Assembly (NCBI GenBank): GCA_031292175.1 | Contig: JARLHQ010000027.1 | Location: 62,001 to 126,000 of the forward strand | Length of the DNA stretch: 64,000 nt | Direction: 5' to 3' | From: Humidesulfovibrio sp. | Lineage (GTDB): Bacteria > Desulfobacterota > Desulfovibrionia > Desulfovibrionales > Desulfovibrionaceae | Part shown: positions 11,185-22,734 of the stretch, one piece after another | Layout: every line of letters begins with the position of its first letter | How positions within the stretch are numbered: position 1 is the first letter of the stretch | Notes under the pieces: model-generated | Database searches by the model: none | The model's input: only the letters and a program-made list of their open reading frames with translations | What the model was told of the DNA's origin: nothing | Made by a program: the position numbers and the translations under genes

Positions 11185-11538
11185 ATGCAGGGAACTTTGC
11201 GCAAGCAGCTGTTGAACACTCTGAGTGGCTTGACCCCGCCCATCTGCCCGGACGCCGACATGGACGACACCCCGCGCCTGGACGCCTGCGCGGACGAGAA
11301 CGAGTACGCCTCCCGCGTGGTCGAGGTGGGAATGCAGCTAGCGCTGCGCCGCCGCATGGAGGCCCGCCGAGGTGAGATCGAGGACGCCCTCGCGCGCATG
11401 GACACCGGCGTATACGGCGTCTGCGAAGATTGCGGCGACGACATCGGCATGGCCCGGCTCCTGGCCACCCCCACGGCGCGGCTGTGCGTGCATTGCCAGT
11501 CCGAGCGCGAAACCGCCCAGTACCTCAGGTGCGCCTAA
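11185..11538 (+). CDS. DksA/TraR-type zinc finger protein
   Basis: A 117-residue protein. The central helical stretch is followed by a C4 zinc finger (CEDCG, 17 residues later CVHC), matching the DksA/TraR family that binds the RNA polymerase secondary channel. The start at 11185 has an ideal AGGAGG seven bases upstream. The stop is one base before the ATG of the next gene, so the two are translated together. Placement under a Pho-box-like element suggests a role when phosphate is short. The substrate promoters are unknown. Confidence 0.85.
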   Translation: MQGTLRKQLLNTLSGLTPPICPDADMDDTPRLDACADENEYASRVVEVGMQLALRRRMEARRGEIEDALARMDTGVYGVCEDCGDDIGMARLLATPTARLCVHCQSERETAQYLRCA

Positions 11539-11539
11539 C

Positions 11540-14188
11540 ATGCCGCACAAAGGCAACGCGAGAGGCGCGATGACGGGGCAAGACACATTCACCATCGACC
11601 TTCACGTGCACTCCAGGCACTCCACCCGCCCCTCCCAGTGGGTGCTCCAGCGCATGGGCTGCCCGGAAAGCTTCACCAAGCCGCGCATGATTTACGACAT
11701 CGCCCGCGCGCGCGGCATGGGGCTTGTCACCATCACCGACCACAACACAATCGCCGGGTCGCTCGAAATCGCCCACTTGCCCGGCGCCTTCGTCAGCGAG
11801 GAAATCACCACCTACTTCCCCGAGGACCGCTGCAAGCTCCATGTGCTGGTCTACAACATCACAGAAGCCCAGCACGCGGAGTTCCAGCGCCTGCGCGACA
11901 ACGTCTTCGACCTCGCGCCATACCTGCGGGCCGAGGGCATCGTGCATGTGCTGGCCCACCCGCTTTTCGCCGTGAATGGCAAGCTCACCCCGGAGCACTT
12001 CGAGCAGGCGCTGCTGCTCTTCAACACCCTGGAGCTGAACGGCTCCCGCGACGCATTCCAGAACAGCGCCCTGCGCCAGATCACCGGCGCGCTGACGCCG
12101 GAGGTCATGGAACGGCTGGCGGACAAGCACGACATCGAGCCCTTAGGCCCGTCGCCGTGGAAAAAGGCCCTTGTGGCCGGCAGTGACGACCACTCGTCAC
12201 TTGGCATCGCCCGGATGCACACGCGCTTTACGGGCCCGGCCACGGTGGAGCGGCTGCTGGAGGCCATCCCGGCCGGCCAGGGCGAAATCCTGGGCGAACC
12301 CGCCAGCCCGTGGAACATGGCCCACAACCTCTGCGGCATCGCCTTCCAGTTCTACAAGAGCCGCAGCGGGCGGCTGCCGGAAAGCCACATCTGCGTCCGC
12401 TTCGCCGATGTTCTGCTGGACCCGGCCACGCCGCGCCAAAGGGGCCTGCGGCCCGCCCTGCGCTTCCTGGCCGACCGCGCGCGCCTGGGCCTTTACTCCC
12501 TGGTGGCGGACAAGAACTCCACAAGCGCCATGCTGCTCGCCGAGGCCAGTCAGGTCATCCGCGCCGACGCGAACATGATGGACGCGGCCCGCGGCCGGGA
12601 GGTCTGCGCCGCGCCCGAGGACACATGGCGCCGCTTCGTGTCCCGCGTGTCCGACCGGATGCTGGCGCGCTTCGCCGAGGGCACCCTCACCGCCGTGAAG
12701 AGCGCGGACGTCTTCGGCCTGTTCCACGAGGTCGCCTCGGCCGGATCGCTCTATGCCATGCTCTCGCCCTTCTTTCTGGCCTGCGAACTCTTCGCCAGCG
12801 AGCGCGCCTTTGCCCGCCAGTGCCTGGGCTGTTTCGGCCTGGCGGCCCCGCGCCCGAGGGACGGCGAACTCAAAATCGCACATTTCACCGACACCTTCGC
12901 CGAGGTCAACGGCGTGGCGCGCACCATCCAGCAGCAGATAGAGCTGGCGGGCAAGCACGGCAAGGACATGACCGTGGTCACCTGCACGGAAGGCTTGAAG
13001 CGCGACGACATCAACAAGGGCGCGGCGCGCTTCGCTCCGGTCGGTTCCTTCAGTATGCCGGAATACCCGGAGATCACCCTTCACTACCCGCCGTTCCTGA
13101 AGCTTCTGGCCTGGTGCGCGGAGCAGGACTTCGACTGCATCCTCACCGCCACTCCCGGCCCCATGGGCCTGGCGGGCCTGGCCATTGCGCGCATCCTCAA
13201 GATCCCGGTCCACGGCACGTACCACACGGCCTTCCCGCAGTACGTGCGCATGTTCACCGAGGATCCGGCAATGGAGGACGCGGCCTGGCGCTACATGCGC
13301 TGGTTCTACGGCCAGATGGATACCATTTACGCCCCCAGCCACTCCACGGCCGAGGATCTGGCCGGGCGCGGCATCAAGGCCGAACGCATCGTGGTGCACC
13401 CGCGCGGCGTGGACGCCGAGCGCTTCCATCCGAACCAGCAAGGCCGGTTCTTCGAGGACCTGGGCCTGGCGCGGCAGTTCAAGATCCTCTATGTGGGCCG
13501 CGTCTCACGCGAGAAAAGCCTGGACGTCCTGGCCGAGGCCTTCCGCCTGGTGCACCTGCACCGCCCGGACGCCCGGCTCGTCATCGTAGGCGACGGTCCG
13601 TATCTGGAGGAGATGCGTGCCCAGACAGCCGACCTGCCCGTGATCTTCACGGGGTACCTGCAGGGCGACGTCCTCACGAGTGCTTACGCCGGAGCGGACC
13701 TCTTCGTGTTCCCCTCAGCCACGGACACCTTCGGCAACGTGGTGTTGGAGGCCCAGGCCAGCGGCCTGCCCGTGGTGGTGACGAACTCCGGCGGCCCGCG
13801 CGAAGCCATGCAGCCAGGACGCACCGGTCTGGTGGTGGCCCCCTACGACCCGCGGGCCCTTGGCATGAGCGTGCTCGATCTGATGCTCGACCGCGAGCGT
13901 CTGGCGAGCATGGCCAGCCTGGCCCGCAAGTTCGCGGCGCAGACCTCCTTCGACCAGGCCTTCCTCAGGACCTGGGACATCTACGCCAGCATCGTGCATG
14001 GCGGGCACGGCGCGCAGGATGCCCAGGCGGCGGAGACACTCGCCGGACCGACTTCCGGCATGATCAGCACCGACGCTCTTGGGACTGGCGCTCTCGGGAC
14101 CGACGCTCTCGGGACTGGCGCTCTCGGGACCGGCCCGGTCGATAGCGACGGCCTCGGCGGTCCGCGCGGACAGGCCAGGGCCGCGTAA
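11540..14188 (+). CDS. PHP-domain phosphoesterase fused to a family 4 glycosyltransferase
   Basis: A fusion of about 882 residues. The N-terminal PHP domain keeps metal-binding motifs: DLHVHS near 20, ITDHNT, a Glu in SEEITTY, VLAHPLF and GSDDHSS. After a helical linker, the C-terminal half is a GT-B retaining glycosyltransferase: KIAHFTDTFAEVNGVARTI, LYVGRVSREKSLDVLAEA and the donor site FPSATDTFGNVVLEAQASG. Close relatives of this GT transfer sugars to diacylglycerol. A phosphoesterase plus lipid glycosyltransferase behind a Pho-box suggests phospholipid-to-glycolipid exchange; this is inference. ATG 11570 with GAGAGG is an alternative start. The C-terminus ends in ALGTG/ALGTD repeats. Confidence 0.85.
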   Translation: MPHKGNARGAMTGQDTFTIDLHVHSRHSTRPSQWVLQRMGCPESFTKPRMIYDIARARGMGLVTITDHNTIAGSLEIAHLPGAFVSEEITTYFPEDRCKLHVLVYNITEAQHAEFQRLRDNVFDLAPYLRAEGIVHVLAHPLFAVNGKLTPEHFEQALLLFNTLELNGSRDAFQNSALRQITGALTPEVMERLADKHDIEPLGPSPWKKALVAGSDDHSSLGIARMHTRFTGPATVERLLEAIPAGQGEILGEPASPWNMAHNLCGIAFQFYKSRSGRLPESHICVRFADVLLDPATPRQRGLRPALRFLADRARLGLYSLVADKNSTSAMLLAEASQVIRADANMMDAARGREVCAAPEDTWRRFVSRVSDRMLARFAEGTLTAVKSADVFGLFHEVASAGSLYAMLSPFFLACELFASERAFARQCLGCFGLAAPRPRDGELKIAHFTDTFAEVNGVARTIQQQIELAGKHGKDMTVVTCTEGLKRDDINKGAARFAPVGSFSMPEYPEITLHYPPFLKLLAWCAEQDFDCILTATPGPMGLAGLAIARILKIPVHGTYHTAFPQYVRMFTEDPAMEDAAWRYMRWFYGQMDTIYAPSHSTAEDLAGRGIKAERIVVHPRGVDAERFHPNQQGRFFEDLGLARQFKILYVGRVSREKSLDVLAEAFRLVHLHRPDARLVIVGDGPYLEEMRAQTADLPVIFTGYLQGDVLTSAYAGADLFVFPSATDTFGNVVLEAQASGLPVVVTNSGGPREAMQPGRTGLVVAPYDPRALGMSVLDLMLDRERLASMASLARKFAAQTSFDQAFLRTWDIYASIVHGGHGAQDAQAAETLAGPTSGMISTDALGTGALGTDALGTGALGTGPVDSDGLGGPRGQARAA
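14071..14130 (+). repeat. Tandem 30-bp repeat in the end of the glycosyltransferase gene
   Basis: Two 30-base units differing at one position, each made of two 15-base subunits, encode repeated ALGTD-ALGTG. The copy number probably varies between strains. The repeat adds a flexible tail and does not touch the catalytic domain. Confidence 0.85.
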
Positions 14189-14290: not shown

Positions 14291-14530
14291 CTAGTGGACC
14301 ATGCACTGGATGTGCGCCCCTTCCGGCAGGTACGTGAGGCAGCCCGCCCCACGTCTTCTGTCGATGGAGAGCGCGCCGAGGCCCGGCAACTCCACCTCGT
14401 TGCCGTTCTCCAGCGCCCTGGCGGGCACGGAGAACACCACATCCACAACCTGAAGCGCGAGATCCTCGTCCTTTATGACATCAGGCAGCGCGTCCATGAG
14501 CGCATGCACATAGGTGTTCTTGTCGATCAT
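14291..14530 (-). CDS. Short HU/IHF-like protein lacking the DNA-binding arm (copy 1)
   Basis: A 79-residue protein. The pattern of an N-terminal helical pair followed by VVFSVPARALENGNEVELPGLGALSI resembles the HU/IHF body. The long beta-arm with the NPxTG motif that wraps DNA is absent. It is replaced by a short segment containing GCLTYLPEGAHIQ. A nearly identical gene lies just upstream at 14766-15005. The start at 14530 has GGAGG. DNA binding is therefore doubtful; dimerisation or modulation of HU is possible. It has its own promoter. Confidence 0.65.
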   Translation of the reverse strand: MIDKNTYVHALMDALPDVIKDEDLALQVVDVVFSVPARALENGNEVELPGLGALSIDRRRGAGCLTYLPEGAHIQCMVH

Positions 14531-14632
14531 AATGGTTCCTCCTTCACTTCGGTCTGTATTCCAATCCAGCGGCTTCTTGGACGTGTTGCCGATCCAAGCA
14601 AAGGCCGCTTGTCTGTTGCTCATCAGAAAATT

Positions 14633-14660
14633 TAAATAGTAATCACCATGCATTTGTCAA
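14633..14660 (-). promoter_or_regulatory. Promoter of HU-like copy 1
   Basis: TTGACA, 16-base spacer, TATTTA on the minus strand, about 105 bases before the start codon. Confidence 0.65.
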
Positions 14661-14765: not shown

Positions 14766-15005
14766 CTACTTAATCAGGCACTGGATGAACGCCTTCTCCG
14801 GGGAGTACGTGAGACAGTTCGAGCCCTTGCTTTTATCGATGGAAAGAACGCCGAGGCCCGGCAGTTCCACCTTGTCCCCGTTTTCCAGAGCCCTCGCGGG
14901 CACGGAGAACACAACATCCAGGATCTTGCTCGCCAGATCGTTGTCTTTGATCAGGTCCGGCAAGGCGTCCTTGAGCGCGTTCACATAGGTATTCCGAGCG
15001 ATCAT
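14766..15005 (-). CDS. Short HU/IHF-like protein lacking the DNA-binding arm (copy 2)
   Basis: A 79-residue paralogue of the gene at 14291-14530. They share NTYV-ALxDALPDxIKDxDLA and VVFSVPARALENG-xVELPGLGxLSIDxxxG, and end with a CLTYxPExAxIQC block. The body resembles HU but the arm that intercalates DNA is missing. Each copy has its own promoter, GGAGG ribosome site and terminator, so they are separate transcription units produced by tandem duplication. They sit between a Pho-box-controlled gene and the GAK operon; any link is unproven. Confidence 0.65.
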   Translation of the reverse strand: MIARNTYVNALKDALPDLIKDNDLASKILDVVFSVPARALENGDKVELPGLGVLSIDKSKGSNCLTYSPEKAFIQCLIK

Positions 15006-15102
15006 ACGGGTTCCTCCTTCTGAATTTGGGTTGCGGGAGCAGGTTGTGCCGAATCTCTTCACGCCAGTGAAAAGCCGCGAACGGGTTTTCCACCATTTTC
15101 AT

Positions 15103-15246: not shown

Positions 15247-15759
15247 TTATTTGGGCGCGGTCTTGGAATCGACGCCAACGGACAAAACGGGGGGCGTGGC
15301 GCCGGACGGGGTCACCGAAACGATCGCGACAGCGGGCGCGGCGGGTTTTGCAGGAGCGGCCACAGCGGCAGGCTTCTTGTCATCCTTCTTCTCGCCGGGC
15401 TTTTCCTGCTTCTTTTCGCCGGGTTTGCAGTCTTTGCACTCCTCGTCTTTCTTGTCGGGCTTGTCGGGCTTGCCGGGCTTGGCGGCTTTGGGGGCCTCGG
15501 CGGAGATTTTCAGATTGGCGGACTCGTCCTGGGTCGGGGCCGTGCGCCAGGTGACCTCAAGGCTGAAGCGGGCCTTGTCCTTCTTCATGCGCGCCTCGAT
15601 CTCGACCTCGGCGCTCTCGCCCGTGGTCAGGGCCAGGCTCTCGCCGTCCTTCTCCACCACAATGACGCCGCTTTTGAAGCCCTTGGCGAGCTGGGTGAGG
15701 TACTCGGCCACGGCGGCGCTCTGCATGAGCGTCTTCATCTCGATCTTGTCCTTGTCCAT
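15247..15759 (-). CDS. Amphi-Trp domain protein with Lys/Pro/Ala-rich tail
   Basis: A 170-residue protein, the last gene of the GAK operon. Residues 1-75 form an amphi-Trp domain: AEYLTQLAKGFKSGVIVV, then a beta-rich stretch ending FSLEVTWRT with the characteristic Trp. The remainder is low complexity, dominated by Lys, Pro, Ala and Glu, with a CKDC pair and a hydrophobic Val/Pro-rich end. Amphi-Trp proteins are small and uncharacterised and recur with ATP-grasp and HprK-like kinase genes. The ATG at 15759 has GGAGG. A second amphi-Trp protein lies in the same operon at 20720. Confidence 0.75.
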   Translation of the reverse strand: MDKDKIEMKTLMQSAAVAEYLTQLAKGFKSGVIVVEKDGESLALTTGESAEVEIEARMKKDKARFSLEVTWRTAPTQDESANLKISAEAPKAAKPGKPDKPDKKDEECKDCKPGEKKQEKPGEKKDDKKPAAVAAPAKPAAPAVAIVSVTPSGATPPVLSVGVDSKTAPK

Positions 15760-15802
15760 GTGAACCTCCAGTATGTCGATCGGTTGTTCCAGTTCTCGGC
15801 GG

Positions 15803-16999
15803 TTAGGCAAGGGAAAGCAGTATGGGTACGAGAAAGCGGTCGTCGATGTCCGGGCTGGGGCCATAGCCGATAAGCGGGCAGTCGATGACCTCCACGCCAA
15901 GGTTGCGGATGCGCGCGAGGTCGAGCCCGCCTGGGTACCGGCCGTGGGCCGTGTCCACCAGCACGAAGTGCAGCACGTCGCACAGCGCGATGCCCGGTGC
16001 GTCGTTCTTGAGCACCTGAACCAGACGCTCCACCTGATCCGCCACGGAGAGGCCCAGGCATTCCGGATCACTGCCCGTGGAGGGCACATAGATCTTGGGG
16101 CAGGAGGCCTGGGCCACGGCCTGGCCGACGCCGCGCGGCAGGAGATTCGCCAGCACGCTGGAATGGAAGCTGCCCATGGGGTAACAGATGAGCTCCGCGT
16201 CCTGGATGAGGCTGCGCATCTTGTCGCGGATGGGCTGCTCCACCAGCCGGCCCGTCTCATCGGACAGGTACAGCCGGGTGATGGGCGAGGCGAGCTTGGC
16301 CGTCTCCTTGCCGGTCATGCGGTGCTGGCCCACCACGAGAGTGCCGTCGGCCAGCTCCGCCGCCAGATGTAGGTTCTTGTTCACCACGGGCCGCACAGTG
16401 CCGCGCACCTGCACCAGGTTGGAGAACATGAAGATCACCGGGTCCAGGTGTCTGCGGTTGGCGAGATACCCGCCCGCAAGCACCAGATTGCCGATGCTCG
16501 CCCCCTTGAGATCAAAGTCGTCCGGCATGTTCTGCTGGAACATGGCCAGATGGTTGCGCACGATCTTGCGCATGGGGTCGGGGATGCGCGCCACCAGCTG
16601 ATGCTTGCCGCGCACCATGTGGTCCAGGGTCTGGCGCAGGGGCGCCTGGTCCGTTTCCTGCTCAGGCGTGCCCGGCAGGCGGTGGGCAAACAGCGCGAAA
16701 ATTTCGGGGTTGCCGCGCAGGCTCTGGTCGGCCAGGGCCATGAGCCGATTTCTGATGTCGCCCACGGCGGGCATGTTGAAGGCCTTTCGCAGCTTGGCCG
16801 AACTGCCGCCGGAGTCGAACGGGGTGATGACATGCACGGAATTGTGCGTGTAGTTGACGAGCCGCGCGCTGGCGCGCCTGAGCGCCGTGCCGCCGCTAAA
16901 GAACAGCACCTTCGGCCCCAGTTCCGGGCACTTCTCCAGCCGCGCCAGGGCCATGTGGTTCGGAATCTCCACCTCGCGGCGGATCCAGGTCTTGGCCAC
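15803..16999 (-). CDS. CofD-related protein, GAK system
   Basis: A protein of about 398 residues with the CofD/YvcK fold signature: LFFSGGTALR near 33-41, HVITPFDSGGSS, a paired MPAVGDIRNRL, and later CYPMGSFHSSVLANLLPRGV and YVPSTGSDPECLG. CofD enzymes transfer phospho-lactate-type groups and YvcK binds UDP-sugars; for the GAK branch no reaction is known. The GTG at 16999 is chosen because GGGGAG lies eight bases upstream; GTG 17017 is the alternative and is three bases from the kinase stop. It is part of the operon running 22734 to 15247. Confidence 0.85.
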   Translation of the reverse strand: MAKTWIRREVEIPNHMALARLEKCPELGPKVLFFSGGTALRRASARLVNYTHNSVHVITPFDSGGSSAKLRKAFNMPAVGDIRNRLMALADQSLRGNPEIFALFAHRLPGTPEQETDQAPLRQTLDHMVRGKHQLVARIPDPMRKIVRNHLAMFQQNMPDDFDLKGASIGNLVLAGGYLANRRHLDPVIFMFSNLVQVRGTVRPVVNKNLHLAAELADGTLVVGQHRMTGKETAKLASPITRLYLSDETGRLVEQPIRDKMRSLIQDAELICYPMGSFHSSVLANLLPRGVGQAVAQASCPKIYVPSTGSDPECLGLSVADQVERLVQVLKNDAPGIALCDVLHFVLVDTAHGRYPGGLDLARIRNLGVEVIDCPLIGYGPSPDIDDRFLVPILLSLA

Positions 17000-17020
17000 C
17001 AGAGTTTCTCCCCGCACAGG

Positions 17021-18136
17021 CTAGCCGTGCACCAGGTATTCAATGCAGAAGTCCGCCGCGCGCTCGAAGTCCACGCCGCCGCTGATCTCCACTAAGTCGC
17101 AACGCGAGAGGGCGGCTGCGTAGGCCTCGGCCTCCGGGTCCAGCCACTCGCTGCCGCCATTTTTCGGCAGGGAGAAGAGCCCGGCGGCCTTCATGAATGC
17201 GGGCAGCAGATCCGGGCGGTCGCCCGCGTCCACGAAACGGATGGCCGTTTCGCCCGCGCCGCGTTTCCAGTTCAGCACCACAAGCCCATGCATGGGCGCT
17301 TGGAGCACGAAACGGCCTTCGCCGAAGCACTTGTCCAGGAACACGTCATACTTGTGCTCCAGGTCCCAAAGGTCGTCGGCATCCAGGTCCAGGAAACGCT
17401 GGCGGTCGGCCGGGGGCACCACCTCGGCCAGATGGGGGTTGTTGAGCGCGGTGCCGGGATTGATGCGCGGCAGTTTGGGCACGCCGGACATGCAGAGCCC
17501 CCGGTCGGCGTTGTCGCCCGCCACCAGCAGACGGTCGTTGCTGACGAAGAGCGCGCCCCGGCTCATTACATGCATGGCCAGCGTGCTCTTGCCGGCACCG
17601 GAGAAGCCGCACAGGGCCAGCCCGCGCAGGCGCCCTCCGGCTGTGTCGGCCATGAGGTGCGCCACGGCCGCAGCATGGCCGAGCAGACAGCCCTGGTGCA
17701 GCTTGTATTCGATGTAGCGGTTGTTGATGAAGTTCACCACCTGATTGGCGTTCTTCAGGCAGGGGCCGATGGCCAGATTGCGGCCGTGGCCGAAAAGAAA
17801 GACCATGCCGGTAAGCGTCTTGCGCACCAGGCGGCCACCGGGCACATCGGCATACTCCTCCTTCACCTTGCTCTTGCCGGGATCCGGGGCCTTGGCCGAA
17901 AGGTCGAAGGGAATGGACGGCGCCGGGCCCTCAAGGGCCGTCACGCTCACGTCTGCCGGGCCGGGCGCGGTCACGAACCCGCCGAAATAGGCGTCCAGTT
18001 CGGCCAGCAGCGGCTGGGAGTTGGAGCGTACCTCAATGCGGCAGTCGCCCAGATCAAGGTGCAAGGTGTGCGGGGCGGGCGCGTCGCCGCCCAGCATCTC
18101 GGCCAGGGTGCCCATGACGTATCCGTGGCGGCTCAT
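17021..18136 (-). CDS. HprK-related kinase B, GAK system
   Basis: A 371-residue protein. The P-loop GFSGAGKST lies near residue 177 and is followed by SRGALFVSNDRLLV, as in HPr kinase/phosphorylase relatives. The N-terminal 130 residues are family specific. The ATG overlaps the stop of the ATP-grasp gene (ATGA), so the two are translationally coupled. HprK proper phosphorylates a serine of HPr. The substrate of this branch is unknown; one of the small amphi-Trp or XXXCH proteins of the operon is a reasonable guess. No HPr gene is in the window. Confidence 0.87.
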   Translation of the reverse strand: MSRHGYVMGTLAEMLGGDAPAPHTLHLDLGDCRIEVRSNSQPLLAELDAYFGGFVTAPGPADVSVTALEGPAPSIPFDLSAKAPDPGKSKVKEEYADVPGGRLVRKTLTGMVFLFGHGRNLAIGPCLKNANQVVNFINNRYIEYKLHQGCLLGHAAAVAHLMADTAGGRLRGLALCGFSGAGKSTLAMHVMSRGALFVSNDRLLVAGDNADRGLCMSGVPKLPRINPGTALNNPHLAEVVPPADRQRFLDLDADDLWDLEHKYDVFLDKCFGEGRFVLQAPMHGLVVLNWKRGAGETAIRFVDAGDRPDLLPAFMKAAGLFSLPKNGGSEWLDPEAEAYAAALSRCDLVEISGGVDFERAADFCIEYLVHG

Positions 18137-19035
18137 GCTTCAATCCTCCTCGCGGCGTAGTCCGCGTATAGCTTTGCGGCGTCCATGCCCCGAGCCTCCT
18201 GGACGCCCCGGAAACCGCCGAAGGCGGACACCTCAAAAATCTGCGGGGCGTCGTCCGGCAGGGCCACGTCCACGCAGGTGAAATCTAGTTTGAAGAGATC
18301 CTGGGCGCGCCAGGCCAGGTCGATAATCTCCTGGGGCGGATCAAAGGGGGCGTAGCGCCCGCCTGAGGCCGTGGTGGTGTTCCACGCGCCGGGCTTGCGG
18401 CAACGCGCGTAGGTGGTCAGATACTCGCCCCCCAGGAACACCACGCCCAGGTCGCGCTCGCCCAAGGCGATGGTCTTCTGGATGTAGAAAAAGCCGTTCT
18501 CCCGCTGGTAGTCCGCCAGCTCCCCGCGCAGGTCCGACCCGGGCTTGAGGATGCGCATGCCGCGCGCCTTGGTGGAGAACAGCGGCTTCGCAATAGCCTC
18601 GCCATAGCCCTCGACCGCCGCCACGGCCGCGTCCAGATCCTCCGTCACCGTGGTCGGGGGCATGGGGATGCCGCCGAGAGCCAGGGTGGTGGTGCAGGAC
18701 ATCCGGTCCAGCAGGCCCAGCACCGCGCCAGGACGGGAAAACATGGCCACGCCGCGTCCCTCAAGGAAGCGCAGCATCTCCAGGCGGTCCAGCAGGCCAG
18801 GCGCATACTCCGGCCCCAGTTTCTTGAGCAGCAGGCCCCTGCACCGCGAGATGTCCCGCCCCTCGTACATGGCCCGCCCGGTGGCCAGATCCACGCTCAG
18901 GCGCTCCAGCTCGATGAGCAGGGGCTCGCCCCCGCAAGCCTCGGCCGCGCGCTGGGCGAGCAGCTCGGAGGACCAGCCCCCGCGCACGCCCACCACGCCG
19001 AGTGCGGGCACGTCCTGCGTAATCGTTTGCGTCAT
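18133..19035 (-). CDS. ATP-grasp enzyme, GAK system
   Basis: A 300-residue protein of the RimK-like ATP-grasp type. A small N-terminal domain (VVGVRGGWSSELLA) is followed by the ATP-binding portion AIAKPLFSTKARGMRI, then DLGVVFLGGEYLTTYAR and the metal-binding end FTCVDVALPDDAPQIFEVSAFGGFRG. ATP-grasp enzymes join a carboxylate to an amine or thiol through an acyl-phosphate. In the GAK context it may add an amino acid to, or crosslink, one of the small partner proteins; the reaction is unknown. It is coupled by ATGA overlap to the kinase downstream. Confidence 0.87.
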   Translation of the reverse strand: MTQTITQDVPALGVVGVRGGWSSELLAQRAAEACGGEPLLIELERLSVDLATGRAMYEGRDISRCRGLLLKKLGPEYAPGLLDRLEMLRFLEGRGVAMFSRPGAVLGLLDRMSCTTTLALGGIPMPPTTVTEDLDAAVAAVEGYGEAIAKPLFSTKARGMRILKPGSDLRGELADYQRENGFFYIQKTIALGERDLGVVFLGGEYLTTYARCRKPGAWNTTTASGGRYAPFDPPQEIIDLAWRAQDLFKLDFTCVDVALPDDAPQIFEVSAFGGFRGVQEARGMDAAKLYADYAARRIEA

Positions 19036-19047
19036 TTGCGTCCGTCC

Positions 19048-20709
19048 CTAGGAGAAGAGCACGCGCTCCGGCAGGCGGAAATCCTGCCAGGGCTGGCCCT
19101 GATGTTCGGCCATGCGCTCCATGAGGTAGTGCGCCCGTTGGCACATGCCGCGGGAAAAGGCCGGGTTCAGTTCAAAGCGCGTCGAGGTGAAGAGCGACCG
19201 CGCGATGGCCAGGGCCATGCGCGCCTCAAAGGTGGCGTCACCCGCCTCGGCGGCAAAGGTTCTGGCGAAGGCCAGAAATTCCGCCATGATCCAGTGGATG
19301 CGCCCGCGCAGGTGGGTCTCGAACACCGGCATGCGGTAGTTCGACACAAGAAACACGCTCACGTCCTGCACATAGTCCGCGGGCCGCGAGCGGTGCACAT
19401 CCAGATAGTGCAGGCGCTGGGTCTGGTGGTTGTAGACCAGGTTGTTCACATTGAAATCGCCGTGGGTGAGCACTGAGAACGGCGCGGCAAGGTCTTTCTC
19501 GATCCCGGCGCAGATGTCCAACAGGGCGTCCGTGGAAGGCGCCACCGTGCCGCAGATGTCCTTCTCCGACCGCCGGAAACTGGGATGGATCTGCAGCACG
19601 GCGTCCAGGCGGGAGGCCACCTGGGCCATGAACGCGGCGGGCACAGGATCGCCCCTGCGCGTGGTCTCCCAGATGTCCTGCACGGTCTGGGTCATGATGA
19701 ACAAGGCGTTCTGCAACACGTCCTCGCCAGCCGTCAGAAGCACCTCGTCCAGGTTGCAGCCGGACAGGAACTCCACCAGAAGCGAAGCCTTGTCGCCCTC
19801 CTCGTGGAAGCCGAAGACCCCGGCCACAAGACCTGGATAGGTCTTGGCCCACAACTCCAGACCGGCCTTTTCGGCCAGGATCTTCTTGAGCGCGCCTTCC
19901 TTGTAAATGCTCCCCAGGGGATCCACCCCGGCGGAAGCGCCCTCGCGGCGCGAGTCCACCTTGCCGATGCGGCAGCCGCTACGCGTGCCCCAGATGGCCT
20001 TGAAGTCCACGCTGGTCAGCCCGCCCGAGAAGCCGGTCTTGGTGAGGGTCTGCTGCAGGGCCTCGAACTGTTCGATCTTGATGCGCTCGCCCAGGATGGA
20101 GAAGATGAGCGCCTCGCCCACGTTCAAAAGTGCGTCGCCGATGCGTTCCAGATAACGGAAGATGAACAACACGGTGATGAGGTTCTGGACGTTCTTGCCC
20201 GTGCGCAACTCACCCATGATGCGGTCGAAGCCGACCTTGTACATGCGGTCCAGGCAGTATTCCGCCCGGCACACGGAAAGTGCGCCGGAGATGTCGCCCT
20301 GCTGGAAGGCCGGCAACACCCGGGCGATGCAGGCCTCAATCTCCGTAAACATCTCGCGGTAGGCGTAGCTGGATAAAAAGGCATGGTCCGTCAGATAGTT
20401 TGTTTGCTGCACCACATTGACGCAGAAGTCAGCCAAACGCTCCAGGTTCACGCACATGACCTGGATGGCGCGCACGCGGTTGCCCTTGGCCTTGTCCAGC
20501 CCGCGCCCGGCTTCGCTCTCGTGGAAGTGGCCGTAGCATTTGTTTTCGATGACCGTCTTCAGGTTGTCGATGTAGTCGTCGCGGCCGACGATGTGGTCGT
20601 AGAGGCTGTGGCTGGGCGATTCGAGGAAGTTCAGGGTGGCGCGCACCTGGCGCTCCACCTCGGCGACCATGAAGGTGAAATTCTCCTCAAGCCCCTCGAA
20701 GGTGATCAT
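19048..20709 (-). CDS. PhoU-like domain fused to an APH-type phosphotransferase
   Basis: A 553-residue protein. The N-terminal 220 residues are helical with PhoU features (FTFMVAEVERQVRATLNFLES, an internal repeat, and RYLERIGDALLNVGEALIFSILGERI). PhoU domains sense or relay phosphate status through metal clusters. The C-terminal portion (about 260-553) is a kinase of the aminoglycoside/choline phosphotransferase fold, with the catalytic loop LTHGDFNVNNLVYN and the metal Asp in LHYLDVHRSRP. This combination ties the operon to phosphate physiology. No antibiotic-resistance role is implied. Ten bases separate it from the amphi-Trp gene upstream. Confidence 0.8.
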   Translation of the reverse strand: MITFEGLEENFTFMVAEVERQVRATLNFLESPSHSLYDHIVGRDDYIDNLKTVIENKCYGHFHESEAGRGLDKAKGNRVRAIQVMCVNLERLADFCVNVVQQTNYLTDHAFLSSYAYREMFTEIEACIARVLPAFQQGDISGALSVCRAEYCLDRMYKVGFDRIMGELRTGKNVQNLITVLFIFRYLERIGDALLNVGEALIFSILGERIKIEQFEALQQTLTKTGFSGGLTSVDFKAIWGTRSGCRIGKVDSRREGASAGVDPLGSIYKEGALKKILAEKAGLELWAKTYPGLVAGVFGFHEEGDKASLLVEFLSGCNLDEVLLTAGEDVLQNALFIMTQTVQDIWETTRRGDPVPAAFMAQVASRLDAVLQIHPSFRRSEKDICGTVAPSTDALLDICAGIEKDLAAPFSVLTHGDFNVNNLVYNHQTQRLHYLDVHRSRPADYVQDVSVFLVSNYRMPVFETHLRGRIHWIMAEFLAFARTFAAEAGDATFEARMALAIARSLFTSTRFELNPAFSRGMCQRAHYLMERMAEHQGQPWQDFRLPERVLFS

Positions 20710-20719
20710 CAGCCGCGCC

Positions 20720-20992
20720 CTACGCTTCCACCTGAAGGGTGCGTTCGCCTGTGGCGATGGGGCTCTTCGCGTCCTTCCAGGAGATCTTGATGGTCATCTT
20801 GCTTTCGCCGTCCTTGCGCTTGGCCTTCACGGCGAAGCTCACCAGGGGGCCGGGCGTGAGGGTGATCTCCTCGGAATCGCTGCGCAGCACCACGCGGCCC
20901 TTGCCGAAACCCTCGGTGAGGGCGGCCAGAAAGGCCTGAATGCTCTTCTCGTCCTGCACCGAATCAAACTCGAACTTGCCGTCGCTCGACAT
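20720..20992 (-). CDS. Amphi-Trp domain protein (short form)
   Basis: A 90-residue protein consisting almost only of the amphi-Trp domain. The N-terminal helix SIQAFLAALTEGFGKGRVVL is followed by beta strands (ITLTPGPLVSFAVKAKRK) and KMTIKISWKDA with the signature Trp. The ATG follows GGAG. It shares the helix and strand pattern with the gene at 15247 but lacks its tail. It is probably a substrate or carrier for the ATP-grasp or kinase enzymes of the operon; this is inference. Confidence 0.8.
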   Translation of the reverse strand: MSSDGKFEFDSVQDEKSIQAFLAALTEGFGKGRVVLRSDSEEITLTPGPLVSFAVKAKRKDGESKMTIKISWKDAKSPIATGERTLQVEA

Positions 20993-21019
20993 GCGGGGGC
21001 TCCTTTTGCTGCGCCGGCC

Positions 21020-22171
21020 TTAAGCGGACAGGCGGGCTGTGTATTCATTGATGACGCGGGCGCGGTCCATGCCGGAGGCCAGCAGGCGCTTTCTTATGCC
21101 AATGTCGTCCCAGGCGGGCTGCACGCCGATCTCACGCTGGACCTTGTCTGAGGTCTTGTCCGGATTCCTCAGCTTCTCGCTCATGTGCGTGTCGTCGCCC
21201 ATGAACACGAGCTGGGGGCGTTCGGTCCAGCCCTTGCGGTTCTTGCGGGCCAGGGTGTCGATCAGGAACTCGGTGTAGCGTTGCGACTGCGGGTTCCACA
21301 CCTCGCAACCGTCCACATCATAGTCGGCGAGCAGGATGGGCCAGAACTGCTCCGGGTGGGGGATGACGATGCCCGCGCCGAAGCCCCGCGCCTCCTCAAT
21401 GACCTCCGAGGCGCGGTAGAAATACTGCATGGGAAACTGGGCCTTCACGCGAAGTTTCACGGCTTGGACGAAGGCCTGCACCCGGGTCACCAAACGGTCG
21501 CCGTAGCGCGCGCGCTGGGCGTCTAGAAAACCGCGCACCAGCTTGTTCTTGAGGATATCGACCGGCAGCGAGCCCAGGTGCCGGTCCAGGAGCGCCAAAA
21601 GCTTCACGGCGTGCAGCCGGGCGAAGCGGATGGTTTCCTCCGCCGCGCCGGTGTCGGCCGCAACGGAGGTGAGGCGCGCCTCGTCCCGACCGGAGAGCAC
21701 GTGCAGAAACTCGAAAAGCTGGCTGGAACGGTAGCGCGCGGTATGGGCCAGCATGGCTTCCAGCACCCCGGCGCGCTCCCGGCGCTCGGCCCGGAAGTGG
21801 AGCAGCAGTTGCACCTTCTGGTTGAAGCCGCTGGAGTAGCAGTCCACCTCCACGCCGGCGAACTCGCCATAGGTGATGATCTCGTTGTGCTGGGTGGGGA
21901 TGATGAGGCTCTGCGCGCAGCCGGGGAAGGTGGCCTCGACCCGCCGCCTGATGAGGGGCAGGGGCACGTATTCCGGGTGCCAGTGCACGGCCAGCACGCG
22001 CTCTTGCCGGGGCAGGACCTCCGCCGGTGTGGCGATGAACTCCTCTTCCTGCGCGGTCAAGGTGGTTCCGGTGATGGCGAAGAAGGCGCGCTCGTCCTCT
22101 TCCGTGGCGGCATCGAGCACGGCGTCCGCATCCGCTGGCGCGCCGGGGCTGGCTTGCTTGTGCTGCTTCAT
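21020..22171 (-). CDS. PHP-like metal-dependent hydrolase in the GAK operon
   Basis: A 383-residue protein with a set of likely metal ligands spaced as in PHP/amidohydrolase-like folds: VHWHPEYVP near residue 60, IIPTQHNEI near 90, IVIPHPEQFWP near 265 and MGDDTHMSE near 320. The first 45 residues are acidic and probably disordered. I could not assign it to a characterised family; phosphoesterase activity is a reasonable guess. The ATG at 22171 has GAGAGGTG. It is 20 bases downstream of the XXXCH gene. Confidence 0.65.
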   Translation of the reverse strand: MKQHKQASPGAPADADAVLDAATEEDERAFFAITGTTLTAQEEEFIATPAEVLPRQERVLAVHWHPEYVPLPLIRRRVEATFPGCAQSLIIPTQHNEIITYGEFAGVEVDCYSSGFNQKVQLLLHFRAERRERAGVLEAMLAHTARYRSSQLFEFLHVLSGRDEARLTSVAADTGAAEETIRFARLHAVKLLALLDRHLGSLPVDILKNKLVRGFLDAQRARYGDRLVTRVQAFVQAVKLRVKAQFPMQYFYRASEVIEEARGFGAGIVIPHPEQFWPILLADYDVDGCEVWNPQSQRYTEFLIDTLARKNRKGWTERPQLVFMGDDTHMSEKLRNPDKTSDKVQREIGVQPAWDDIGIRKRLLASGMDRARVINEYTARLSA

Positions 22172-22191
22172 GGATTCACCTCTCACCAAGG

Positions 22192-22734
22192 TTATTTCGC
22201 CAAGGCGTGGCAGGCTTTCTTGGAGGCGTTCAGCCTGTCCATGGCATCGGCCAGGGCGACGCGGTCCTGCTTGTCGAAGGCGCTCTTGAAATCGTTCAGA
22301 ATGTCCATGTACTGACCGTAGTCCGCCGCGCCGCGATCCTGGTGGGCGCACATGGCGAGCGAGTCCTTCAGAAAGGCGTCGACGATCTCCACGGGCGGCA
22401 GGGTGAGCGTGACCACGCTGTGCTGCAGGAACTTGAAGCTGGTTTTCATGCGCTTCTTGATGGCCTTGAAGGAGCCGCCGACCGGGCCGAGCACGGAGTC
22501 GGCGATGGCCGCGCCGGGCAGGGAAACGCCCTTCACCTTGAGCTTCATCTCCGCCATGCTGCCCAGCTGCTTGATCGTGAGCTCCAGCTTGGTGCAGCTG
22601 CCGAGATGCGGGGCAAAGGCCTTCAAGGACTCGGGTTCGATGGCGTGGCGGAACCCACCGGCCAGGGCCTTGAGCACCTGCGAGACTTCGTCGGCCTGGA
22701 GGATGATCTCGATTTTCATGTCGTCACTTCCCAT
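22192..22734 (-). CDS. XXXCH-domain protein, first gene of the GAK operon
   Basis: A 180-residue protein. The start (MKIEIILQADEVSQVLKALAGGF) resembles the amphi-Trp helix. The middle is beta rich (KLELTIKQLGSMAEMKLKVKGVSLPG). The C-terminal helical part ends in NASKKACHALAK, the Cys-His end that names the XXXCH domain. Proteins with this ending recur in GAK gene clusters; the role of the Cys-His pair is unknown. The ATG at 22734 follows AAGGAG, and a Pho-box-like element lies 76 bases before it. It is the first gene of a roughly 7.5-kb operon. Confidence 0.8.
   Translation of the reverse strand: MGSDDMKIEIILQADEVSQVLKALAGGFRHAIEPESLKAFAPHLGSCTKLELTIKQLGSMAEMKLKVKGVSLPGAAIADSVLGPVGGSFKAIKKRMKTSFKFLQHSVVTLTLPPVEIVDAFLKDSLAMCAHQDRGAADYGQYMDILNDFKSAFDKQDRVALADAMDRLNASKKACHALAK

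Follow-up and report, generated by a model that had tools for sequence, protein, structure and literature searches.

A complete GAK operon in Humidesulfovibrio sp. and its possible role in a phosphate-controlled phosphorylation pathway

A 64,000-nucleotide stretch of DNA from Humidesulfovibrio sp. (GenBank assembly GCA_031292175.1, contig JARLHQ010000027.1, positions 62,001 to 126,000; hereafter the window) carries on its minus strand, at positions 15247-22734, an operon of the GAK system, a set of protein families named by NCBI. Eight genes are packed there as one tight cassette, in which neighbours overlap by at most 4 bases and lie at most 43 bases apart, and in the order of transcription they encode an XXXCH-domain protein, a PHP-like hydrolase, a first amphi-Trp protein, a fusion of a PhoU domain to a kinase domain, an ATP-grasp enzyme, an HprK-related kinase B, a CofD-like protein and a second amphi-Trp protein (Table 1).

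Table 1. Genes of the GAK cassette and its two neighbours in the window.
Feature	Position	Strand	Evidence
XXXCH-domain protein, 180 aa	22192..22734	-	TIGR04358 69.4 bits; amphi-Trp-like N-terminus and C-terminal four-helix XXXCH domain
PHP-superfamily metallohydrolase, 383 aa	21020..22171	-	Predicted PHP fold and metal motifs
Amphi-Trp protein 1, 90 aa	20720..20992	-	TIGR04354 75.8 bits
PhoU domain + APH/EcKL-like kinase domain fusion, 553 aa	19048..20709	-	Pfam PhoU 66 bits, EcKL 26.5 bits
GAK ATP-grasp enzyme, 300 aa	18133..19035	-	TIGR04356 401 bits
HprK-related kinase B, 371 aa; 4-base overlap with the ATP-grasp gene	17021..18136	-	TIGR04355 486 bits
GAK CofD-like protein, 404 aa, GTG start, YvcK/GlmR-like	15803..17017	-	TIGR04357 547 bits
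Amphi-Trp protein 2, 170 aa, charged Lys/Pro-rich tail	15247..15759	-	TIGR04354 53.6 bits
Neighbour: OlsF-like acyltransferase + GNAT fusion, 638 aa	22858..24774	-	Acyltransf_2, Acetyltransf_5
Neighbour: PHP-like N-terminus + GT4 glycosyltransferase fusion	11372..14188	+	GT4 Pfam domains; PHP motifs read by eye

An original prediction, made from the sequence alone, had assigned these eight genes to the GAK families together with a PHP-like hydrolase and a PhoU-kinase fusion, and had described a complete GAK operon with no assigned function. Both descriptions held: six of the eight products exceeded the NCBIfam GAK cut-offs, all five named families (ATP-grasp, HprK-related B, CofD-like, amphi-Trp and XXXCH) are present in the single cluster, the fusion was confirmed, and a PHP fold is predicted for the hydrolase. 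A full-text literature search, with most subscription journals outside it, returned no paper on the 'GAK system' or 'amphi-Trp' and one unrelated mention of the XXXCH domain, in a phage genome paper. The portions available of a D. vulgaris fitness paper (PMC10102598) and a nitrate paper (PMC4001038) held nothing that could be tied to GAK.

The order XXXCH-PHP-amphi-Trp-PhoU-kinase-ATP-grasp-HprK-CofD recurs across genera and also in some other phyla. Two sets of loci (our L numbers; genomes have G numbers) were compared: wide regions from 40 of the 43 genomes with the CofD family, that is all except the window's own (G000), G008 and G050, and named loci, the best 80 of at least 511 ATP-grasp relatives in named genomes. 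The loci differ in length, many end at contig ends, and their genes are our own open reading frame (ORF) calls with rough starts; at least nine of the 80 named loci repeat genomes already sampled (six recognised by identical protein ends, together with L071, L074 and L114), and in five an overlap filter masked the ATP-grasp gene, though all 80 had been found by it. These best 80 span Desulfobacterota, Zixibacteria, FCPU426, Nitrospirae, Atribacteria, Methylophaga, Hahella and Labrenzia, and many are metagenome bins; Nitratidesulfovibrio oxamicus (L096) is one of those with the complete operon. Judged by the HprK-related gene the distribution is patchy, with 20/297 sampled genomes of the window's phylum, 8/274 of Methylophaga's class and 2/289 of Labrenzia's class. 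Among 59 relatives, the CofD family exceeded its cut-off in 40 and the ATP-grasp family in 35. The ATP-grasp gene lies inside the cluster in 26 of the 40 wide loci; the CofD family occurs without it in the other 14 fetched loci, and in two of these genomes the rest of the operon is found elsewhere (L155, L156). Relatives G001, G002 and G009, which lack a CofD match, have their sole ATP-grasp match in a second operon type (described below). On one contig of a deltaproteobacterial metagenome-assembled genome, an XXXCH-PHP-ATP-grasp-CofD cluster lies near an amphi-Trp-PhoU-kinase-ATP-grasp-HprK cluster (L102 and L123).

The PhoU domain of the fusion matched PhoU chains in the PDB with an E value of 4e-17, and both of its ERxxD motifs, the metal motif of PhoU, are kept in 26/26 sequences except for one change of Arg91 to Lys. 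Because the fusion scored 75 bits against the full-length PhoU equivalog, whose cut-off is 130, we do not regard it as a PhoU orthologue. Kinases of the APH/choline-kinase-like type have an HxDxxxxN catalytic loop and a metal-binding Asp; the corresponding residues H416, D418, N423 and D437 are kept in 26/26, and to judge from its sequence the fusion has the catalytic motifs of this kinase type. Its gene was present in 34 of the 35 long GAK loci from outside the Alpha- and Gammaproteobacteria. In HprK-related kinase B, the P-loop residues and Asp201 are invariant (19/19), and the protein scored 16.8 bits against the HPr(Ser) kinase equivalog, far below the cut-off of 240. HPr kinase responds to phosphate and pyrophosphate.

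The PHP-like hydrolase had no family match in NCBIfam or Pfam and matched no PDB sequence better than E 0.24. Its structural model nevertheless clearly predicts a PHP barrel fold, and the ligands HxH...H...E...H...H...DxH, which form the PHP metal-ligand motif, are invariant in 26/26. The gene was present in 33 of the 35 long non-alpha/gammaproteobacterial loci, whereas neither PHP nor XXXCH was found in 14 alpha/gammaproteobacterial loci, which carry a His-phosphatase-Nudix protein (10/14), a His phosphatase (11/14) and a calcineurin-type (PPP) phosphatase (11/14). The profiles for these three enzymes were built from five of the 14 loci and L083, so that only the nine new loci test them; seven of the nine carry one or more of them, with gene order varying, and none of the three was found in L167 and L170. 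The Nudix domain of L141 matched the diphosphoinositol polyphosphate hydrolases DIPP1/DIPP2 best among the named PDB chains (E 6e-9), ahead of Ap4A hydrolases, and the PPP phosphatase of the same locus aligned with ApaH along a short stretch of 48 residues (E 0.003). In one Desulfogranum operon PHP and the Nudix protein occur together, the latter inserted between the PhoU-kinase and ATP-grasp genes. The exchange of PHP for other phosphate-removing enzymes in other lineages suggests a role for PHP as a phosphatase acting on the pathway's compound.

Phosphate genes adjoin the operon in some relatives. At L035 the operon is immediately preceded, on its own strand, by genes for PhoU, PstB and a PhoB-type regulator; PstB is also present at L045 and L050, and PhoU-like ORFs precede the XXXCH gene at L045, L050 and L063. 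PstB was found in 7/80 named loci against 0.39 expected, an expectation that assumes one such gene per 3.3 Mb and ignores relatedness. Linkage within 15 kb was counted for first-type operons in 31 genomes, with separate draft contigs scored as not near; PstB was this close in 4 of the 30 relatives having both, in four different genera.

The window's own flanks point in a related direction. An acyltransferase-GNAT fusion, which we take to be OlsF-like from its domain make-up, lies 123 bases upstream of the operon in the same orientation; on the downstream side is a GT4 glycosyltransferase with a PHP-like N-terminus fused to it (PHP-GT). The N-terminus of the latter had no Pfam match, and its GT4 part was closest in NCBIfam to N-acetylglucosaminyl phosphatidylglycerol synthase (130 bits, cut-off 480). 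PHP-GT was within 15 kb of GAK in 11/24 genomes having both and the OlsF-like gene in 8/19; the two genes are about 2 kb apart in G019, G043, G047 and G051, and PHP-GT is near PstB in 2/28. In Desulfovibrio alaskensis G20, phosphorus-free lipids are made through agt and olsF when phosphate is limiting: glycolipids are missing from the agt mutant and ornithine lipids from the olsF mutant, and growth of both mutants matches the wild type with 500 uM phosphate but is worse at 10 and 2 uM (PMC5193443). We infer that the window's OlsF-like and PHP-GT genes are counterparts of G20 olsF and agt, which suggests that the operon is flanked by gene kinds that serve to replace phospholipids during phosphate shortage. 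The G20 study also gives a late starvation phenotype for the phoU homologue Dde_2835, which could not be tied to the GAK fusion (PMC5193443). It is unlikely that the operon itself serves the making of phosphorus-free envelope lipids or the recovery of phosphate from lipid head groups: the two flanking genes and their linkage across genomes speak for such a role, but none of the GAK proteins had an acyl- or glycosyltransferase match in NCBIfam or Pfam, the linkage is seen in 4/13 genera for PHP-GT and 2/10 for the OlsF-like gene, and neither neighbour cluster occurs in the five of the 14 alpha/gammaproteobacterial loci, all five from the named set, that were checked for them.

The presence of two kinases alongside at least one hydrolase implies a cycle of phosphorylation, to which the ATP-grasp and YvcK-like (CofD-like) proteins would add a conjugation step and a nucleotide-binding step. 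We tentatively propose, as a possible rather than a probable reading, that the operon encodes a pathway, controlled by phosphate status, in which a soluble compound is phosphorylated and dephosphorylated. The proposal is based on gene content, gene order, fold and motifs, and on the linkage to phosphate genes that a minority of loci show. Phosphoanhydride bonds may be present in the compound, which may act as a store or a messenger. The PhoU-fused and HprK-related kinases would add phosphate according to phosphate supply, the fusion perhaps reading phosphate through its PhoU domain; the ATP-grasp enzyme would attach an amino acid or a comparable moiety to the compound, and the YvcK-like protein would bind a nucleotide-linked partner. 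Phosphate would be removed by PHP, or in other lineages by the Nudix, His-phosphatase and ApaH-like enzymes, with the amphi-Trp and XXXCH proteins as putative non-catalytic partners holding either the compound or the enzymes. Glucose pentakis(diphosphate) of D. gigas, a possible substrate, was not used as evidence.

Several observations weigh against this proposal. PstB is away from GAK in 26/30 relatives and 73/80 named loci, and in the window's genome it is on a different contig from the operon. The window's own genus supplies 7/11 of the PHP-GT linkages and 7/8 of the OlsF linkages, and the OlsF-like gene is near PstB in 0/21. A Pit-superfamily transporter beside the operon at L033 scored 122 bits as the sulfate permease CysP and 88 as PitA, both far under cut-off; because the sulfate permease scored higher, it was left out of the phosphate linkage, and a Pit phosphate transporter was dropped as a GAK neighbour. 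A second GAK operon in the window's genome (L151, 6174-13099, contig C19) has XXXCH, PHP, amphi-Trp, PhoU-kinase, ATP-grasp and HprK genes, in the same order, followed by chorismate synthase in place of CofD and not by phosphate genes; this second operon type also occurs in relatives of the genus, with shikimate kinase upstream at L152. Across the 75 non-alpha/gammaproteobacterial loci, Nudix-His-phosphatase was found in one and the His and PPP phosphatases in none. The PDB chains closest to the ATP-grasp enzyme are RimK/LysX-type ligases (best E 4e-22), and the Asp-Glu-Asn metal triad of that type, whose Asn usually serves the second metal, is incomplete: Asp256 and Glu268 are kept and the third position is Ser270 (23/23).

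RimK and LysX act on proteins, and the target of HprK-type kinases is a Ser in the carrier protein HPr. Both facts favour a different explanation, in which the kinases and the ATP-grasp ligase modify amphi-Trp or XXXCH and the phosphatases reverse the modification, and the operon indeed encodes two amphi-Trp proteins as well as an XXXCH protein whose N-terminus aligns to the amphi-Trp profile (hhalign probability 88, pairwise E 3e-6). In an alignment of 167 amphi-Trp rows, genome repeats included, Trp72 alone is near-invariant (99%) and Lys/Arg positions are conserved; no Ser, Thr, His or Cys is near-invariant, and the top well-filled Ser, Ser11, reaches 67%. The case for amphi-Trp as a phospho-acceptor is weakened by this lack of a conserved acceptor residue, and the protein is therefore read, from its sequence, as a putative binder. 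The Cys-His pair of XXXCH is invariant (23/23), yet the 14 alpha/gammaproteobacterial loci yielded no XXXCH. We regard protein modification as rather doubtful on this balance. The peptide modification put forward in the original prediction gains little from the two small proteins, though it retains the likeness of the ATP-grasp enzyme to RimK/LysX ligases; of the phospho-group storage it offered as the other option, the phospho-group part gained from the Pst/PhoU/PhoB genes of some lineages, the OlsF-like and PHP-GT flanks and the hydrolases that replace PHP, and the storage part did not.

The predicted structure of XXXCH has four helices at residues 89-179. At the position of the first Cys of CXXCH, the 23 sequences have Lys (19), Met (3) or Gln (1), so the haem motif is absent. 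A canonical c-type cytochrome was rejected because this Cys is missing in 23/23 and the helical-bundle match is not specific. A ParA/MinD-like ATPase adjoins amphi-Trp genes at L117 (4955-5710, AAA_31) and L081 (13704-14456, same cluster), and could hint at the positioning of a body or granule.

The CofD-like protein had five PDB matches at E 0.01, including UPF0052 chains that we take to be YvcK-type (best E 1e-32). A role as an F420 enzyme is weakened because no chain named CofD is among the five. The protein scored 121 bits against the YvcK family TIGR01826, below the cut-off of 196. The second-best NCBIfam match of the ATP-grasp enzyme was MptN (110 bits, cut-off 350); an ITPK/PPIP5K-type kinase was unsupported, no chain so named being among its 14 PDB matches at E 0.01. 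The CofD-like protein together with the MptN match would fit a cofactor-like compound, a phospho-hydroxyacid with an amino-acid tail like F420 or tetrahydromethanopterin; given the absence of CofD-named chains and of any CofC-like guanylyltransferase family (NCBIfam, Pfam) among the eight genes, we consider this very improbable. Equally improbable is a module that regulates carbon or envelope metabolism after the pattern of YvcK/GlmR and HPr kinase, for which the YvcK-type resemblance and the HprK-like kinase can be cited and which leaves the ATP-grasp enzyme, the PHP enzyme and the phosphate-gene neighbours unexplained. At L055-L058, L060-L062, L064 and L066-L069, CofD-like genes lie outside a GAK cluster, three of them under the family cut-off, and possibly form a stand-alone branch of the family.

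Some further features of the loci were recorded. A low-molecular-weight protein tyrosine phosphatase cluster is near GAK in 8/80 named loci (L074 at 1045-1596, L075-L078, L122, L123 and L126), the domain having been scanned in L074. A Tll0287-like domain protein lies between the PhoU-kinase and ATP-grasp genes at L112 (8935-9756). At L033 (14977-17027) the transporter is accompanied by a TIGR00153-like gene that is under its cut-off, and genes of the same two clusters lie inside the operon on the opposite strand at L063 (10193-12258). In the window, minus-strand positions 14291-14653 and 14766-15062 hold two small paralogues side by side, which have 72% identity across 79 residues and are HU-like by eye; the second had no Pfam family match at E 1e-4.

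A link to phosphate limitation gives an anonymous cassette a direct experimental handle, and a phosphate-signalling compound that nobody has looked for would exist in bacteria if the product were a phosphorylated store or messenger of a new kind. Among known systems, Pst/PhoU shares with GAK the PhoU fold and both ERxxD motifs, and in some relatives the operon is directly downstream of phoU; the GAK PhoU domain differs in being fused to a kinase, and the operon has no transporter of its own. HPr kinase/phosphorylase resembles GAK kinase B in the P-loop, a neighbouring His and the catalytic-loop Asp, but the alignment extends over only some 50 residues, Asn200 of the GAK kinase takes the place of the first Asp of the pair, and the operon has no HPr gene. 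With YvcK/GlmR (UPF0052), its best PDB matches, the CofD-like protein shares the GGT, GG-S and GDxRN motifs, while Asp-Asp is replaced by Asp68-Ser69 (22/22) and the score is below the YvcK cut-off. Cytochrome c' shares a C-terminal Cys-His with XXXCH and may resemble it in its four-helix bundle, and differs in having the first Cys of CXXCH. In eukaryotic inositol-pyrophosphate signalling, the domain make-up of PPIP5K and DIPP is echoed in the alpha/gammaproteobacterial clusters of ATP-grasp, His phosphatase and DIPP-like Nudix; however, the GAK ATP-grasp is closest to ligases, the inositol likeness comes from the sequence of one Nudix domain, and the window's operon has neither Nudix nor His phosphatase. 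We find it quite unlikely that GAK is a bacterial counterpart of this signalling, with the PhoU-fused kinase and its partners making a soluble pyrophosphorylated messenger or store upon changes in phosphate status, DIPP-like Nudix, His-phosphatase, ApaH-like or PHP enzymes degrading it and amphi-Trp binding it. The NCBIfam entries TIGR04354-TIGR04358 give the GAK families names without function, and the window's operon is a further example of this named, unexplained kind, to which the present analysis adds PHP and the PhoU-kinase as regular members and an alpha/gammaproteobacterial form with other hydrolases.

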